Source: Halorubrum sp. CBA1229
Lineage (GTDB): Archaea > Halobacteriota > Halobacteria > Halobacteriales > Haloferacaceae
Reading direction: 5' to 3'
DNA length: 64,000 nucleotides
Assembly: GCF_003721435.2 (NCBI RefSeq)
Contig: NZ_CP054586.1
Span: 1 to 64,000 of the forward strand
The notes beneath the pieces were generated by a model. That model did no database searches. It saw only the letters and a program-made list of their open reading frames with translations, and was not told the origin of the DNA. Below, in pieces: positions 1 to 54,703 of this stretch (its first letter is position 1; each line of letters begins with the position of its first letter). The translations under genes were made by a program, and so were the position numbers.

Positions 1-1
1 A

Positions 2-193
2 GAGCGCACGCGGCGGGTGATGGTCGCGACCGAACCATCGGTTCGAAGTGCCATGCTTGGGGCGGTCCACGCACGCTGGGACGCCAGCGTCCGGACGTTC
101 ACCGATGCCGCGGACTGCTGTCGGCTGTGCGCGCAGTTCTGTACCCACATTCAGAACGAAGAGCTCTATGGCTCGCTTGAGAGATTGGGATGA
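2..193 (+). CDS. C-terminal end of an unidentified protein (cut by window edge)
   Basis: An open frame enters from the left edge in frame 2 and stops at TGA 191-193, giving the last 63 residues of a protein. The tail contains a Cys cluster (CCRLCAQFC) and ends in ELYGSLERLG. Composition is protein-like rather than a shadow frame, but I do not recognise the family and the start lies outside the window. It could also be a chance open frame because only 192 bases are visible. Confidence 0.4.
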   Translation, partial: ERTRRVMVATEPSVRSAMLGAVHARWDASVRTFTDAADCCRLCAQFCTHIQNEELYGSLERLG

Positions 194-503
194 TTCCGCC
201 CCAAGCAAGAGAGGTAATATAGATTTCACGAAGGTCTCCCATGAGAGTTCCTCGAAAGACGAGGGGTGCCGGGAAGACCTACGCTCAGGAAATACGGAGT
301 GTTGGATCCGGAGGAATCGAGAGCGGCTCCACTGCTTCTCAAGAATACCGGTGACTCGAGATCGCGGAGGGGCAGCCCTATCGATTTGTTGTGTGAGAGA
401 CCAACAAACTGTGTGGACCCACCCCTATCGACTTGTTCACGTCAGCGACGAAACTGAGTCGTCGACAACACCCTCGCCCCTATCGATTTGTTCGAGGGAT
501 GAG
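194..503. other. Intergenic region with three origin-type repeats
   Basis: No convincing gene. The region lies 3' of the initiator gene and carries three copies of the 16-17 bp repeat described as a separate feature. Confidence 0.6.
374..492 (+). repeat. Initiator-binding repeats, left cluster (3 copies, forward)
   Basis: Three copies of CCCCTATCGATTTGTT occur at about 375-390, 421-437 (ACTTG variant) and 477-492, all in the same orientation. They sit directly downstream of the Orc1/Cdc6 stop codon. The G-rich end on the complementary strand resembles the G-string of archaeal origin recognition boxes, although the core differs from the chromosomal ORB consensus. Confidence 0.75.
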
Positions 504-1841
504 CTACTTTTTGAGCTGTGCGTTCACGACGGTGCGGAGTTCGTCGTCGTGGACGTCGTCTAGCCGCGAATCTTCCCGGAGCGTCTCAATAATGGTCTCC
601 GGATTCTCACCAAACGTGAACTCGAGATAGCTGCCCGAGTGTGGCCCCTGACTTTTCCGCTCTGTCTCAACCAAGGAATACGTCGTGAGTTCCTTCATCT
701 TATTCACGTACGTCTCCTGGTGGTACTGATCCGAATCAAGGGTGCCGGTCAGGTACTGATATACTCGGTATCCGATCGGGCTTATCGCTGCACCAGTTCC
801 GGTTTCACACGCTACAGCTGCAGTCGCGAAAAGACAGAGCTTCTTCTGTGTGCTGATCCCACGAGTCACCTCTAACACGCGGTTCTTCTCAACTTTATCC
901 TGAGCTTCTCGAACGTGCTCTTCACGGATTTCGTTTGCACCCGTTTTTTCTGCAATCGACCCCGCTGTTCGCATCAGGTCGATCGCCTTCCGTGCGTCCC
1001 CGTTGGTTTGCGCGGCGAAGGCTGCTGCAAGAGGGATGACGTCGTCACTGAGTGCATCCTCGTGGAAGGCATCTTCCCGAGCCCAGAGAATTTCCCGGAG
1101 CTGGTTGGCGTCGTAGTCACTGAAGTGAACGTCCTCGGGGGTGAACGAACTGAGAGCTCGACTTCCCACGCTCTCCATCATTTTCGTGTCGTTCGTGATC
1201 GCGGTCACGGAGACTTGGGCGGTGATCTCGTTAGTACTTCCAGCGCGAGAGAGCTGATAGAGAAGTCGGGAGAAGGCTGGTTCGTCCTTATCGCGACGAC
1301 CGACGAGCATGTCGAGTTCGTCGAGGATGAACACGACTGTATCGTAGTGTTCGTTGATGAGGCGGTAGAGTTCGCGCCATTTTTTCTTGTTTGGAACCCC
1401 GTGCTCTGGGACATCGACAGTCGTTCCGATGTCGTTCGACACCTTTCGCGCAAGTTCGTAGACGGCTGCGCCGAGGGTCCCCACGTTCTGGCAGTTCATC
1501 TGAATGACGCCGAACCGGATATCACGACTTTCACAGAGTTCGACGATATTCTGGCAGACAGCGTTGATGATGAGAGATTTCCCGGTCCCGGAAGGGCCAT
1601 AGAGGAGAAGATTCGGTGGCCGCTCGTTACTAATCGCAACGCGAAGGTGCTGAGTGATATCAGTGAGCTGGGTGTCACGACCGACGATACGTTCTTCGTC
1701 GACGATCTCGTTCGGTTCGAGGAGCGACCGGTTCTTGATGAGACTCGCGGCTTCCTCCTGCTCGAGAATGAGATCTTTGATAGAACCCGTGGACTCAGGG
1801 GTCTCCTCGGGACCAGGATCCGTGGGCATACCGAACCCCAC
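504..1841 (-). CDS. orc: Orc1/Cdc6 family replication initiator
   Basis: Replication initiator ATPase of the Orc1/Cdc6 family, 445 aa, a normal length. The AAA+ Walker A motif GPSGTGKS is at residues 82-89 and Walker B FILDELD is near 171-177; arginine-finger and sensor regions follow, then a C-terminal winged-helix region. In haloarchaea such proteins bind origin repeats and load MCM. The gene is flanked on both sides by copies of one repeat, which are therefore likely its own binding sites. ATG at 1841 is taken as the start; a second Met follows at residue 5. The family call is secure; that it drives this replicon's origin is inference from context. Confidence 0.95.
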   Translation of the reverse strand: MGFGMPTDPGPEETPESTGSIKDLILEQEEAASLIKNRSLLEPNEIVDEERIVGRDTQLTDITQHLRVAISNERPPNLLLYGPSGTGKSLIINAVCQNIVELCESRDIRFGVIQMNCQNVGTLGAAVYELARKVSNDIGTTVDVPEHGVPNKKKWRELYRLINEHYDTVVFILDELDMLVGRRDKDEPAFSRLLYQLSRAGSTNEITAQVSVTAITNDTKMMESVGSRALSSFTPEDVHFSDYDANQLREILWAREDAFHEDALSDDVIPLAAAFAAQTNGDARKAIDLMRTAGSIAEKTGANEIREEHVREAQDKVEKNRVLEVTRGISTQKKLCLFATAAVACETGTGAAISPIGYRVYQYLTGTLDSDQYHQETYVNKMKELTTYSLVETERKSQGPHSGSYLEFTFGENPETIIETLREDSRLDDVHDDELRTVVNAQLKK

Positions 1842-1863
1842 TCTATCAGGATACTAAAAGATT

Positions 1864-2355
1864 CCCCTGTCGATTTCTTTTCTACCGGTACGGCGTTCAG
1901 AACCGGGATATCAGAGGGTTACACCGCTGTCTTCCGCGACCCCCGACGATTTGTTAGGAACCCTTCGTCTGGACCAATCCAGGAGAACTCCCGAACACCC
2001 TCTCACCCCTATCGATTTGTTCTGACCACAAAGGAGGGGTGGGGGTGAGAGAGTTCCCGAACGGACTAACAGTCCATCTCCGTCACGAATAGCACGGAAT
2101 CGAGAGCTGCTTTCATCTTCTCTTTCTCTTCTTTCTAGTTCTAGTTCTAGCTAGCTAGTAGAACACACCTCTATCGACTTGTCCTAACTACACTCCTTCA
2201 CTCTATTTCTTTCCTGATCAAGTATATAAACACGGATTGGGAAAACCAGGTGACGAACAGTGGGTTCAGGCATATTGTAGGTATCAGGGCGGGACGTCTT
2301 GCTATCCCCTCAGTTTCCCAAGTGAACTACTCTACACTCACCGCTATCGATTTGT
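1864..2355 (+). repeat. Initiator-binding repeats, upstream cluster (forward)
   Basis: Forward copies of CCCCTATCGATTTGTT: near-perfect at 2005-2021, variants at 2166-2181 (CCTCTATCGACTTGT) and 2341-2355 (CCGCTATCGATTTGT), and weak versions at about 1864-1880 and 1939-1956. All have the C-rich end on the left, away from the AT-rich centre. Confidence 0.75.
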
Positions 2356-2379
2356 CTAATGCTACTCCAGTCTACCGAA

Positions 2380-2440
2380 TCTAGTAGAAATCGAGCTAAT
2401 AAAGACTGATACGGTTAAATGATCTCATCCAGATGTGCCA
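2380..2440. other. AT-rich candidate duplex-unwinding element
   Basis: The relatively AT-rich segment lies between the last forward and the first reverse origin repeat (includes GCTAATAAAGACTG and GGTTAAATGATC). Its position at the centre of convergent repeats, not a recognised motif, is the basis for the call. Confidence 0.45.
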
Positions 2441-2492
2441 TATCCTCGTGAGTTCCTCGTGATCAACTCTCCCCTCCCCGCCCTTACTCGCC

Positions 2493-2703
2493 AGAACAAA
2501 TCGATAGGGGTGGGTGTGTGGTCTTATCGACACGGTCGCGATAGATGCAGCCGATCGTGTATAGAGCCGACTCTATACTCGATTTCGGCATTTTCGTCCC
2601 ATTGGTTCAATACTAGTCTTTCGTGTATGCCTCCCCGCTGAACAAATCGATAGAGGTGACCCTCCGTATGCTGGTGGTTTCGTTGAACAAGTCGATAGGG
2701 GTG
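2493..2703 (-). repeat. Initiator-binding repeats, right cluster (3 copies, reverse)
   Basis: Reverse copies AACAAATCGATAGGGGTG at about 2494-2511, AACAAATCGATAGAGGTG at 2641-2658 and GAACAAGTCGATAGGGGTG at 2685-2703. Orientation is opposite to all copies left of 2355, which gives the usual symmetric arrangement of an archaeal origin. Confidence 0.75.
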
Positions 2704-2860
2704 CGTCTCACCAACTACTCAACCGACGTCAGAGATCTCGACCTCAAGTCTTCTTTAATGGCGATGGTACCGCAGACATGTAGGAATTCATTCAATTCGC
2801 TACAGACCGATTCGCATTTGAGCGAAACGCTTTTTCACGCAACACTCGAAATCTGTGGTA

Positions 2861-3271
2861 ATGAGTACGTCCGACCACACGCCAAGCGACCTGGAGTCCG
2901 TTCGGGAGCGGCTCAACGTGGTCACCCAGGAGACGCGGTTCTCGCTCCTCCAGGACATCCTCGGGCATCCGTCGGAACTGCCGACACTGAAGGAACTCGA
3001 CTACGTCAACCCGAACAAGAGTCAGACGACGATTCGCCAGCACCTCCAGCAGCTCGTCGACGCCGGCATCGTCATGGAGGTGCTCCTGCCCGAGGACCGC
3101 CGGCAGAACGACCTGCCGTACAAGTTCTATGGGCTCAGTGAAAGTGGTCGGCAGTTCCTCGAGGAACACAAGCTCCTCCGGGCACAAGACACGCTTCTAG
3201 AGATATATGACCGGGTTGAGAAGACGGACGACATCGAACGGTACGAGACTGCCCCGCGACCCGAGCGCTAA
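2861..3271 (+). CDS. Winged-helix DNA-binding protein (ArsR/MarR-like)
   Basis: Small acidic protein of 136 aa. A winged helix is visible: helix ETRFSLLQDILGH, then SQTTIRQHLQQLVDAGIVMEVLLPEDRR and a wing ending YKFYGLSESGRQFLEEH. The TTIRQHLQQL segment is the recognition helix. No metal-binding Cys pair is present, so metal sensing is unlikely. ATG at 2861 is preferred over an in-frame start two codons earlier. It reads away from the origin and is the first gene on that side. It may be a copy-number or backbone regulator and is one candidate to bind the TTAACCAACA inverted repeats nearby; both are guesses. Confidence 0.85.
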   Translation: MSTSDHTPSDLESVRERLNVVTQETRFSLLQDILGHPSELPTLKELDYVNPNKSQTTIRQHLQQLVDAGIVMEVLLPEDRRQNDLPYKFYGLSESGRQFLEEHKLLRAQDTLLEIYDRVEKTDDIERYETAPRPER

Positions 3272-3345
3272 CAGCTCTCGTCTTTCACTTCGCAGATGGG
3301 GTGTCACCCCGAACAACTGGGCAGCCGACTGTGACGTTCTCTCGT

Positions 3346-3669
3346 CTATTCGCCGGGATTGACGGGACCTTTGTACTGAGAGCGGATCTTGTCGCCGTCC
3401 CGCCACTGCCAGTAGTAGTAGCGGTTATCGTTGATCTCCTTGATCGTAATCGTCGCCTTCGATGGAACGTGATCCGGGAGGTCGTCTGATCGTTCTTCGA
3501 TCTCGTCTTCATCCTCCGCCTCAGCAAGGCGATCTTCACGCTCACGGTATTCAGCGAGTTTCTCAGCGTAGCTCGCGATGTGGCGAAGGAGTTCGGGCGA
3601 GTAGTCGTCGAGAGTATCGACGACGTCAGGGGGAAGGTCTGCTGAGGGCGTCGGTGGCTCGTAGGGCAT
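3346..3669 (-). CDS. DUF6788-like haloarchaeal protein
   Basis: Protein of 107 aa with an acidic coiled N-terminal half and a C-terminal module ATITIKEINDNRYYYWQW...KIRSQYKGPV, matching what I recall of DUF6788, in which a basic aromatic beta module often accompanies DNA-acting plasmid proteins. ATG at 3669 (MPYEPPT) is chosen because the longer frame would read through the inverted repeat at 3683-3723, which must be promoter DNA. Function unknown. Confidence 0.75.
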   Translation of the reverse strand: MPYEPPTPSADLPPDVVDTLDDYSPELLRHIASYAEKLAEYREREDRLAEAEDEDEIEERSDDLPDHVPSKATITIKEINDNRYYYWQWRDGDKIRSQYKGPVNPGE

Positions 3670-3682
3670 GGGCTGACCAGTG

Positions 3683-3723
3683 TTAACCAACACAGACGCA
3701 AAAGGCATAGTTTTGTTGGTTAA
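3683..3723. promoter_or_regulatory. TTAACCAACA inverted repeat, copy 1
   Basis: TTAACCAACA at 3683-3692 and TGTTGGTTAA at 3714-3723, spacer 21 bp. It lies just upstream of the DUF6788-like gene start at 3669. Confidence 0.85.
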
Positions 3724-3829
3724 ATCACTATCAACGGTTCTCCTGCACCTGTAACACTACTCGAAACTCTATATCAATGAGTTTCACCTGATGTTACAGC
3801 CCCCGAGGACTCTCGAACACTGGACGATC

Positions 3830-4645
3830 CTACGAGTTCGAGGGGAGCCGTCCATCAGGTCGTGGAACCCGCCCTTGTTTGATCTCGTGATCGACTCGCC
3901 GGAGATGTTTACAGCCGCCCTCGGGCGTTCGTTTCCTCCAGTCTGGACACGTGCAGGACTCGCTGATCACGTCGACCTCGTACCAACTCCCGGACGCGGA
4001 TTGCACCTCGTAGCGACCGCCTTTTTCGAGCAGCGAGACGGCCATCTCCTCGTCGACGGCGCGTCTGGTGCGTGGTTCCAACTCGCCGTGTTGGTTCGCG
4101 TGCTCCGTGACGATCATTCGATCGCGAACGTCGCCAGTTCGTCCACCGTCAGGCGCGACGGCAGCCGGACCGTGGAGACGATCCTGCAGGAGGTCTTCGA
4201 CCGGATGGCCTTCCGACCACAGATAGTGCACTTCGCGACGTTCACGATGGTCGTAGGAGCCGCAGGCGGCGGCGCTGCCGGCCCAGACACGCCACGCGCC
4301 GAGTGTAGCCATCACGTCGACGATGATCCGCGGAACGGTCTCGTACTCGTCGGGGTAGAAGATTCGGAAACGGGTACACTCTTCTCGGGGTGAGGCGTCG
4401 TCCCACCACTCGACGTCGTCGCCCCAGCTGTCGAACATCGACTCGTCATCTCCGTACCCGACGGTCACGCCGTCGATCTGTGGCACGTCCACCGACATTT
4501 CATCAGCTTCGCCTTCGAGCAGTCGGAGCACGGCGTATCTGAGATACTCGTGTTCCGGATGGTCGGTCGACTGGGCGACTTGGTCGTGGTATTCTGCGAC
4601 TCGTTCCGCCTCCTCGAGAACGGTAGTTAGGTACTGGTCGGTCAT
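3830..4645 (-). CDS. SWIM zinc-finger protein with extra N-terminal domain
   Basis: Protein of 271 aa. The C-terminus has a SWIM zinc finger, SCTCPDWRKRTPEGGCKHL, fitting CxC-Xn-CxH, a domain used for DNA or protein binding. The N-terminal ~170 residues are rich in Trp and acidic residues (SWGDDVEWWDDASPREECTRF) and unfamiliar; haloarchaeal stand-alone SWIM proteins are usually about 100 aa, so this looks like a fusion of two domains. ATG 4645 (MTDQYL) is preferred because the upstream hairpin and inverted repeat occupy 4665-4739. Role unknown, probably nucleic-acid related. Confidence 0.8.
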   Translation of the reverse strand: MTDQYLTTVLEEAERVAEYHDQVAQSTDHPEHEYLRYAVLRLLEGEADEMSVDVPQIDGVTVGYGDDESMFDSWGDDVEWWDDASPREECTRFRIFYPDEYETVPRIIVDVMATLGAWRVWAGSAAACGSYDHRERREVHYLWSEGHPVEDLLQDRLHGPAAVAPDGGRTGDVRDRMIVTEHANQHGELEPRTRRAVDEEMAVSLLEKGGRYEVQSASGSWYEVDVISESCTCPDWRKRTPEGGCKHLRRVDHEIKQGRVPRPDGRLPSNS

Positions 4646-4664
4646 GGGTCGATGGAGACGGGAG

Positions 4665-4696
4665 TGCGCCTCCGCCCCTCGGCGGGCGCTGATAAA
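4665..4696 (-). promoter_or_regulatory. GC hairpin leader element (SWIM gene)
   Basis: Read toward the gene: GTTTATC box then GCGCCCGCC-loop-GGCGGAGGCGC. It ends about 20 bases before the start at 4645. Member of the recurrent hairpin family. Confidence 0.65.
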
Positions 4697-4697
4697 C

Positions 4698-4739
4698 TTA
4701 ACCAACGACGACCCGTATTAACGTCCGATTGTTGGTTAA
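4698..4739. promoter_or_regulatory. TTAACCAACA inverted repeat, copy 2
   Basis: TTAACCAACG at 4698-4707 and TGTTGGTTAA at 4730-4739, spacer 22 bp, directly upstream of the hairpin of the SWIM gene. Confidence 0.85.
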
Positions 4740-4757
4740 CTGGAACGGACCACGAGT

Positions 4758-5696
4758 TCAGTCCTCGGCAACTATGCCGATAATCTCCTGGGCGGTCGAA
4801 CTGATTCGACCGAGCCGATCCTGGATCACCTCCGCATCGTCGTTCTCCCACGCGGCGAGGTAGAACGCTGACCCGCTCGTGTCCAGTCCGAGAAACCGAC
4901 CAACGATGTACGCGACGGCTTCCGCTTCGACTTCGCGTTTCGCTCTCTCGGTGTCGTCGTCGACGTCGAAATGCAGTAGCGCGTGAGCGTACTCGTGAAT
5001 CAGCGTCACCGCGAGGTCGGCCTGATTCGCTCTATCTTTCGCTTCGACGACGGGTTGGCATTCGTGGAGGTTCCGGTGTTTGCAGACGCCTTTTGCGTCG
5101 CCATGCTCCCACTCAGCAGCGTTGACGACACGGACGTCTATATCGAGCGTAGTTGCTGCATCGAGGAGTGCTGGCACCAGGTCGTCGGCGTCTCCAGCTG
5201 CCTCGGTTTCCAGCTCGGGGAGCGGTTCGCCCTCGGTTTGAGACACATCGAAGACGGCAGTTGGTTTGAATCCAACCAGTCCTTTAGACCACTCCTCGGG
5301 CGGTGTCTCGTCGTAGTCACAGTCGCTTTGCTCGTGGTAGCTCGGTGAGTTCTCGCACTCGGGGCACTGCTTCGTAATAATGGGTGCCCAGATCCAGATC
5401 GCCTGTTCGCCTTCCTGGACGTACCGGTCGAACTCGTTCCGCCAGGTGTTGTAGCCCGCGACCTTCGTCGCCTCGGGGCACTGCAGCTTGATGAGCAGCG
5501 TGTTGCGATGGGAGTAGTCGTGGAAGCGACTCTGGACGTTGAGCCACTCCTGAAATTCCTCGCTGGCCTGGGCCTCGTCAACGTCGTCGACGAGCTCGTC
5601 GATCCAGGCTTCGATGGTACTGTGCATCTCGTCGTGTCGCGTGTCGGTCTCTTCGAACGAGACCGACGGCTCACTGGCTGTAACCATTGTATTCAC
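4758..5696 (-). CDS. ArdC-like antirestriction / ssDNA-binding protein with IrrE-type metallopeptidase motif
   Basis: Protein of 312 aa. The N-terminal part (about residues 25-165) resembles the ArdC N-terminal ssDNA-binding domain (WLNVQSRFHDYSHRNTLLI...GYNTWRNEFDRYVQEGEQAIWIWAPI). A Cys-rich insert (CPECENSPSYHEQSDC) follows. The C-terminal domain has the zinc metallopeptidase signature HEYAHALLHF (HExxH) typical of ImmA/IrrE. Known ArdC proteins protect incoming plasmid DNA from restriction after conjugation, which fits this replicon. Start MNTMVTASE at 5696, or MVTASE nine bases later; a hairpin leader lies 35 bp upstream. Confidence 0.85.
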   Translation of the reverse strand: MNTMVTASEPSVSFEETDTRHDEMHSTIEAWIDELVDDVDEAQASEEFQEWLNVQSRFHDYSHRNTLLIKLQCPEATKVAGYNTWRNEFDRYVQEGEQAIWIWAPIITKQCPECENSPSYHEQSDCDYDETPPEEWSKGLVGFKPTAVFDVSQTEGEPLPELETEAAGDADDLVPALLDAATTLDIDVRVVNAAEWEHGDAKGVCKHRNLHECQPVVEAKDRANQADLAVTLIHEYAHALLHFDVDDDTERAKREVEAEAVAYIVGRFLGLDTSGSAFYLAAWENDDAEVIQDRLGRISSTAQEIIGIVAED

Positions 5697-54280: not shown

Positions 54281-54703
54281 CTACCAGGGGGCGAGGTCGA
54301 CGCACTGCGCCAACGGGAGGTTCATCATCGACCCAGCGACGGTGTAGAGTGGCCCGAGGGCGACGAGGACGACCGCGGACTTCATCGCCGACCGTTTGTG
54401 CCGCTTGAGGCCCTTCTTCTGCTCGGGCGTGATCGTGAACATCTCGATAAGGGAGTCAGCCTGCCACACGACTGCGAGGCCGACAATGCCCAGCGCCGTG
54501 GTAAGCTGGAAGAAGCCCTCGATCATGCTGGGAAGGTTGTCCGCACTACAGACGGCATTCGTCTGTGCGGCGGCGGGTTCCACAGCGAACAGGCTCAGGG
54601 CGACGACGATGAACATAGCTTGCCTGGGAAGCCTACTCGATGCCGTGGACTGGCTGTCGGCGCGATTCGAAGCCGTCTCGGAGGGCGTATTGTCCTGTGA
54701 CAT
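54281..54703 (-). CDS. VirB2/TrbC-like pilin or small channel subunit
   Basis: Protein of 140 aa with a signal-like helix (AMFIVVALSLFAVEPAAAQT), then two further membrane segments (FFQLTTALGIVGLAVVWQAD and AVVLVALGPLYTVAGSMM) and a basic loop (TPEQKKGLKRHKRSAMKSA). The signal peptide ending AAA-Q and two-helix mature form match VirB2/TrbC pilins. Two Cys (AVCSADN, AQCVDLA) could form a disulfide outside. Gap of 6 bp from the upstream small gene. Confidence 0.75.
   Translation of the reverse strand: MSQDNTPSETASNRADSQSTASSRLPRQAMFIVVALSLFAVEPAAAQTNAVCSADNLPSMIEGFFQLTTALGIVGLAVVWQADSLIEMFTITPEQKKGLKRHKRSAMKSAVVLVALGPLYTVAGSMMNLPLAQCVDLAPW

Follow-up and report, generated by a model that had tools for sequence, protein, structure and literature searches.

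A replicon unit of ~2.35 kb at the start of the window (the whole 64,000-nucleotide stretch of Halorubrum sp. CBA1229 DNA analysed here) appears to put one type of repeat to three uses: converging arms that would fire the origin, a promoter box that would autorepress the initiator gene, and a 3′ array that would titrate its product. We assign this reading a probability of roughly 60%. In the proposed model, transcription of the Orc1/Cdc6 initiator gene runs away from the origin, and ORBs consisting of a core (ACAAATCGATA) and a G-string would do all three jobs. Following the ORB-origin model, the initiator would bind the arms at 2006–2356 and 2495–2701, leading to DNA opening and MCM loading; for relatives, binding of Orc to ORBs is established. 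A variant, presumably weaker, box at 1864–1879 and a second at 1940–1955 overlap the orc promoter, and their position and conservation suggest that the initiator, when bound to them, denies access to TBP/TFB and thereby represses the gene that encodes it. The 3′ array (375–492) would bind spare initiator and lower the initiation frequency, for which Haloarcula hispanica oriC2D provides a precedent. Together, the three would keep initiator activity, and hence copy number, constant. The pairing of box and initiator would keep the replicon independent of the sister-clade origin that this plasmid also carries.

As a haloarchaeal plasmid origin next to an orc gene, the unit is of a known kind. Haloarchaeal cells hold many Orc-linked origins; for the control of firing at each of them, a promoter-fused variant box would offer a simple and testable mechanism, autorepression.

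The repeat and its cognate initiator

The window forms the start of contig G000:C2, a 364-kb plasmid (363,938 bases) found alongside a 3.2-Mb chromosome, and an orc-linked candidate origin on it agrees with the plasmid origin put forward in a preliminary description of this DNA. The product of the orc gene exceeds 300 aa, contains AAA+ and winged-helix domains, and matches TIGR02928 (398 bits) and Pfam Cdc6_lid and Cdc6_C. Its predicted structure (mean pLDDT 80) is best matched by 2v1u and 2qby, which are Orc1–DNA complexes. A start at the in-frame GTG of position 1841 would yield 445 aa, but translation probably begins at the ATG at 1829, because this ATG is invariant in clade A (see below).

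Eleven copies of CCCCTATCGATTTGTT with 0–3 mismatches lie on the two flanks of the gene and span 375–2701, in line with the approximately 11 copies described before. They begin at 375, 422, 477, 1864, 1940, 2006, 2168, and 2341 on the plus strand and at 2495, 2641, and 2686 on the minus strand. A search allowing 3 mismatches returned 12 matches in the window versus 0.20 expected by chance, 11 of which fall within 375–2701, and none of 100 shuffled windows came near, let alone reached, 12; the one remaining match, at 54438, is weak and stands alone. Left of 2356 the copies read CCCC...TTGTT on the plus strand and right of 2495 on the minus strand, placing the switch in orientation between these positions, as claimed previously. 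The gene and the two candidate arms are as follows.

504–1829, minus strand: orc1/cdc6 initiator gene, 441 aa, counted from the conserved ATG at 1829
2006–2021, plus strand: promoter-side arm, box 1 (mismatch search, clade comparison)
2168–2183, plus strand: promoter-side arm, box 2, CCTCTATCGACTTGTC (mismatch search, relatives)
2341–2356, plus strand: promoter-side arm, box 3, inner, CCGCTATCGATTTGTC (mismatch search, relatives)
2357–2494, no strand: gap separating the two arms, a candidate for unwinding, 53% AT
2495–2510, minus strand: distal arm, box 1, inner (mismatch search, relatives)
2641–2656, minus strand: distal arm, box 2 (mismatch search, relatives)
2686–2701, minus strand: distal arm, box 3; many distant relatives lose homology within ~40 bp of it

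The centre between the arms had been described as 140 bp of AT-rich DNA. It is indeed above the window average (53% versus 41% AT), but across relatives its AT content equals that of the other inter-box gaps, and it is not consistently the least stable segment, the stability result being mixed. The relatives lend no support to a special AT-rich centre, and the gap is not the clearest unwinding element. GC skew gave no origin signal in the analysis.

On its G strand the box reads AACAAATCGATAGGGGTG, a core followed by a G-string, and it is present in both orientations in the adjacent intergenic region. This is the general form of haloarchaeal ORBs according to Wu et al. 2012 (PMC3528665), where orc/cdc6-adjacent origins likewise have inverted ORBs with a G-string, an ORB specific to the initiator family and, in several cases, ORBs on both flanks. 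The exact box occurs in 50/391 genomes of the class, mostly clustered, while a reversed control pattern gave 0 matches; the box was absent from the published text searched. In a search for viral relatives of the window Orc, five stretches matched a pattern, and none of them encoded a relative.

We compared 89 loci, comprising 33 in clade A (≥83% identity to the window Orc), 49 in clade B (65–73%), and 7 in clade C (~57%); loci within a clade share descent, and the observations behind a count such as 33/33 are therefore not independent. Each clade forms one group in a quick tree, with the placement of the pNRC200 locus (L135) excluded. The preliminary description had proposed looking for the repeat beside close orc homologues and would have taken its absence there as a refutation; it is present beside 33/33 of them (clade A). 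At position 12 of the box, 281/282 clade A boxes carry T and 362/373 clade B boxes carry G, and the majority base there sorts 33/33 clade A and 49/49 clade B loci, as expected of an ORB specific to its initiator family. The suggestion of a replicon-specific initiator/box pair thus holds, with one base setting the box apart from that of the sister clade. The clade C box is TTACACATCGATGACGGGGGG, and an ATCGAT core is common to the boxes of all three clades.

Fixed differences between the clade A and clade B Orc proteins are absent from the recognition helix (371–384) and frequent in the wing (386–406), where they affect 7/21 residues versus 43/424 (p = 0.005), a contrast noticed post hoc and to be taken as a lead only. 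With a common recognition helix, a differing wing, and one diagnostic box base, the A/B pair offers a system for studying the Orc–ORB specificity code and a route to compatible archaeal vectors.

Repeat arrays are typical of centromeres too, and ParA genes lie near some relatives, so the repeats could instead be a partition site or the sites of another protein. We regard this as very improbable: the box tracks the clade of the orc gene even as the neighbours vary, its layout of core and G-string is that of haloarchaeal ORBs (PMC3528665), and it occurs inside none of the orc genes examined.

Variant boxes at the orc promoter

The two copies nearest the start of the gene, at 1864 and 1940, form a conserved class of variant boxes of their own at the orc promoter and are probably not origin boxes.

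1852–1859, minus strand: predicted TATA box TTTTAGTA, ~27 bp before the ATG (leaderless start); conserved in the clade A alignment, function presumed
1864–1879, plus strand: proposed operator, a variant box reading CCCCTGTCGATTTCTT, or AAGAAATCGACAGGGG when read on the gene strand, immediately next to the TATA box and 50 bp upstream of the ATG
1940–1955, plus strand: second variant box near the promoter, CCCCCGACGATTTGTT, at a distance of exactly 76 bp from the operator, 96% conserved

A variant box occupies the operator place in 33/33 clade A loci, with the exact gene-strand sequence AAGAAATCGACAGGGG in 25/33. On the C strand, 30/33 clade A operators end in TCTT, versus 0/278 other clade A boxes, and the 76-bp spacing between the two promoter boxes is kept in 33/33 loci. 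Column conservation in clade A reaches 96% in the promoter boxes versus 69% in the rest of the upstream region; part of the conservation upstream of the TATA box could be due to BRE function. The distance from operator to ATG is 49–51 bp in clade A, 50–56 bp in most of clade B, and 51–52 bp in clade C, in each case beside a T-rich TATA box. At base 12 the operator agrees with its clade, which ties it to its cognate initiator and argues against a general promoter element. The straightforward reading of this arrangement suggests that the promoter variant box mediates orc autorepression.

The same placement recurs at a 50% paralogue on G000:C2 and at cdc6K of the H. hispanica plasmid pHH400. The latter belongs to a proven plasmid origin, oriP-cdc6K, with ARS activity and an essential initiator (PMC3936714, PMC3528665), and resembles the window in having ORBs upstream and downstream and a box abutting the TATA box; it differs in its initiator (30% identity) and in its box (AACAGCGGACA core). 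Binding of an Orc1-family protein to its own promoter has been footprinted for Saccharolobus islandicus Orc1-2 (PMC9738581), although that protein is a non-initiator DNA-damage regulator that recognises ANTTTC. The literature searched, which covered few subscription journals, contained no report of a conserved promoter variant box or of autorepression through it, and the available part of PMC3528665 describes neither a conserved promoter box nor a clade-wide 3′ array.

The array beyond the 3′ end of orc

Three further copies lie past the end of the gene.

477–492, plus strand: 3′ array, box 1, CCCCTATCGATTTGTT, 15 bp past the gene, an offset alike in most clade A loci
422–437, plus strand: 3′ array, box 2, CCCCTATCGACTTGTT (mismatch search, clade comparison)
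375–390, plus strand: 3′ array, box 3, GCCCTATCGATTTGTT (mismatch search, clade comparison)

This position had been called unusual, which the comparison contradicts: of the loci compared, 33/33 in clade A and 45/49 in clade B have 3′ copies, and genes with ORBs on either flank were already listed in 2012 (PMC3528665). Most clade A loci have 3′ boxes at 15, 70, and 117 bp past the gene, and these boxes are 95% conserved versus 65% for the spacer. Homology to many distant clade A loci starts at ~342–378 and ends at ~2704–2742; bounded in this way by the outermost boxes, the conserved unit includes the 3′ boxes. Across loci the arrays contain 1 to 8 boxes, often as tandem duplicates 40–55 bp apart, and grow through tandem duplication at this spacing.

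A second origin arm, as also proposed for the 3′ copies, is unlikely because all of those in the window face one way. An ordinary orc-adjacent origin in which the 3′ and promoter boxes are extra loading ORBs of one long arm, with no repression or titration, accounts for the orientation in clade A, where 104/106 of the 3′ boxes are minus in orientation, like the promoter-side arm, and could extend it. In clade B, however, 144/145 are plus and face the opposite way. Any orientation-dependent role must then differ between the clades, and titration, which is independent of orientation, fits better than a simple extension of the arm. The promoter boxes also speak against a single arm, being a distinct class by their TCTT end and standing at a fixed distance from the TATA box and the ATG, as does the inactivity as an origin of the H. 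hispanica oriC2 downstream cluster, which reduced origin activity (PMC3936714). We judge the single long arm quite unlikely.

Titration of the initiator by the 3′ array is plausible, and its closest parallel is oriC2-cdc6E/oriC2D (Wu et al. 2014, PMC3936714), where an ORB cluster also lies directly downstream of the initiator gene. That cluster lacked origin activity and lowered the activity of the origin, with a negative effect graded with ORB number; removing the cluster by itself was not possible, and the effect of two downstream ORBs was intermediate (PMC3936714). The chromosomal oriC2D has 11 ORBs in 722 bp versus 3 in ~120 bp on the plasmid in the window.

F plasmid oriS-repE-incC has a similar layout, with initiator sites in the origin, in the promoter of the initiator gene, and in an array past that gene; the promoter sites and the post-gene array limit copy number (PMC13028717). 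The comparison is an analogy only: RepE and Orc1 are unrelated, the RepE operator is built as an inverted repeat to which dimers bind, and the window's initiator is an Orc1/Cdc6 and not of the RepE type. We would give even odds to a broader proposal, that haloarchaeal Orc1/Cdc6 plasmid initiators are autorepressed through a promoter-fused variant ORB and titrated by an iteron-like 3′ array, a eukaryote-type initiator having converged on the full copy-control circuit of F/P1-type plasmids in a form common to several Orc families.

Some loci depart from the common arrangement. In L042, ~1.6 kb is inserted between orc and an intact 3′ array, and in L029, ~1.2 kb is inserted inside the promoter-side arm, each a natural spacing experiment. 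In clade C (L135 on pNRC200, and L124–L129), the converging arms are on the 3′ side of orc, and the clade C origin thus seems to have changed side relative to clades A and B.

Related origins and the spread of the cassette

Clade A and clade B origins occur together on the window's plasmid. Natrinema zhouii, Halorubrum salsamenti, and Halorubrum halophilum also have both, on different plasmids or contigs; such coexistence is what independent initiator–box pairs would allow. The sister-clade orc on G000:C2 (260205–262514; L009, L013) has 66% identity and its own boxes, CCTCTATCGATGTGTT, on both flanks. A third orc (213149–217441; L014; 50%) has a box core of TCGCACACGG, with 5 copies upstream and 5 downstream, one of which abuts that gene's promoter. 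A fourth origin may lie near 280435–280843 (L021, 3208–3615), where TTGCCGCTGTAAAC occurs twice in direct and twice in inverted orientation at ~1 kb from an orc homologue.

The plasmid has 4 further orc homologues or fragments besides the window's gene, and 4 orc genes with nearby repeats, 3 of them outside the window. With so many candidates, the origin in the window might be dormant or a relic that arrived on a transferred segment, the plasmid being replicated from another orc-linked origin. Dormant origins are documented in haloarchaea (PMC4595724, PMC3528665), and in the Halorubrum ezzemoulense Fb21 megaplasmid (L130, 4001–6396) a clade A orc is split by an IS1595 transposase gene. In the window, by contrast, boxes, operator, and gene are intact. 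Within window positions 1–4841, 3.7–4.8 kb are 100% identical in Haloparvum sedimenti, Halobellus captivus, and Halonotius terrestris, which points to very recent spread between genera, a transfer without decay. Moreover, on each of four plasmids (94.5, 119, 135, and 224 kb) a single clade A Orc and no other Orc was detected, and the 94.5-kb plasmid has no other annotated initiator. A dormant origin is on balance unlikely.

The protein encoded at window positions 4758–5696 matches the N-terminal domain of the anti-restriction factor ArdC below threshold, and two other plasmids (L120, L129) have ArdC-like or LtrC-named genes in the vicinity of orc.
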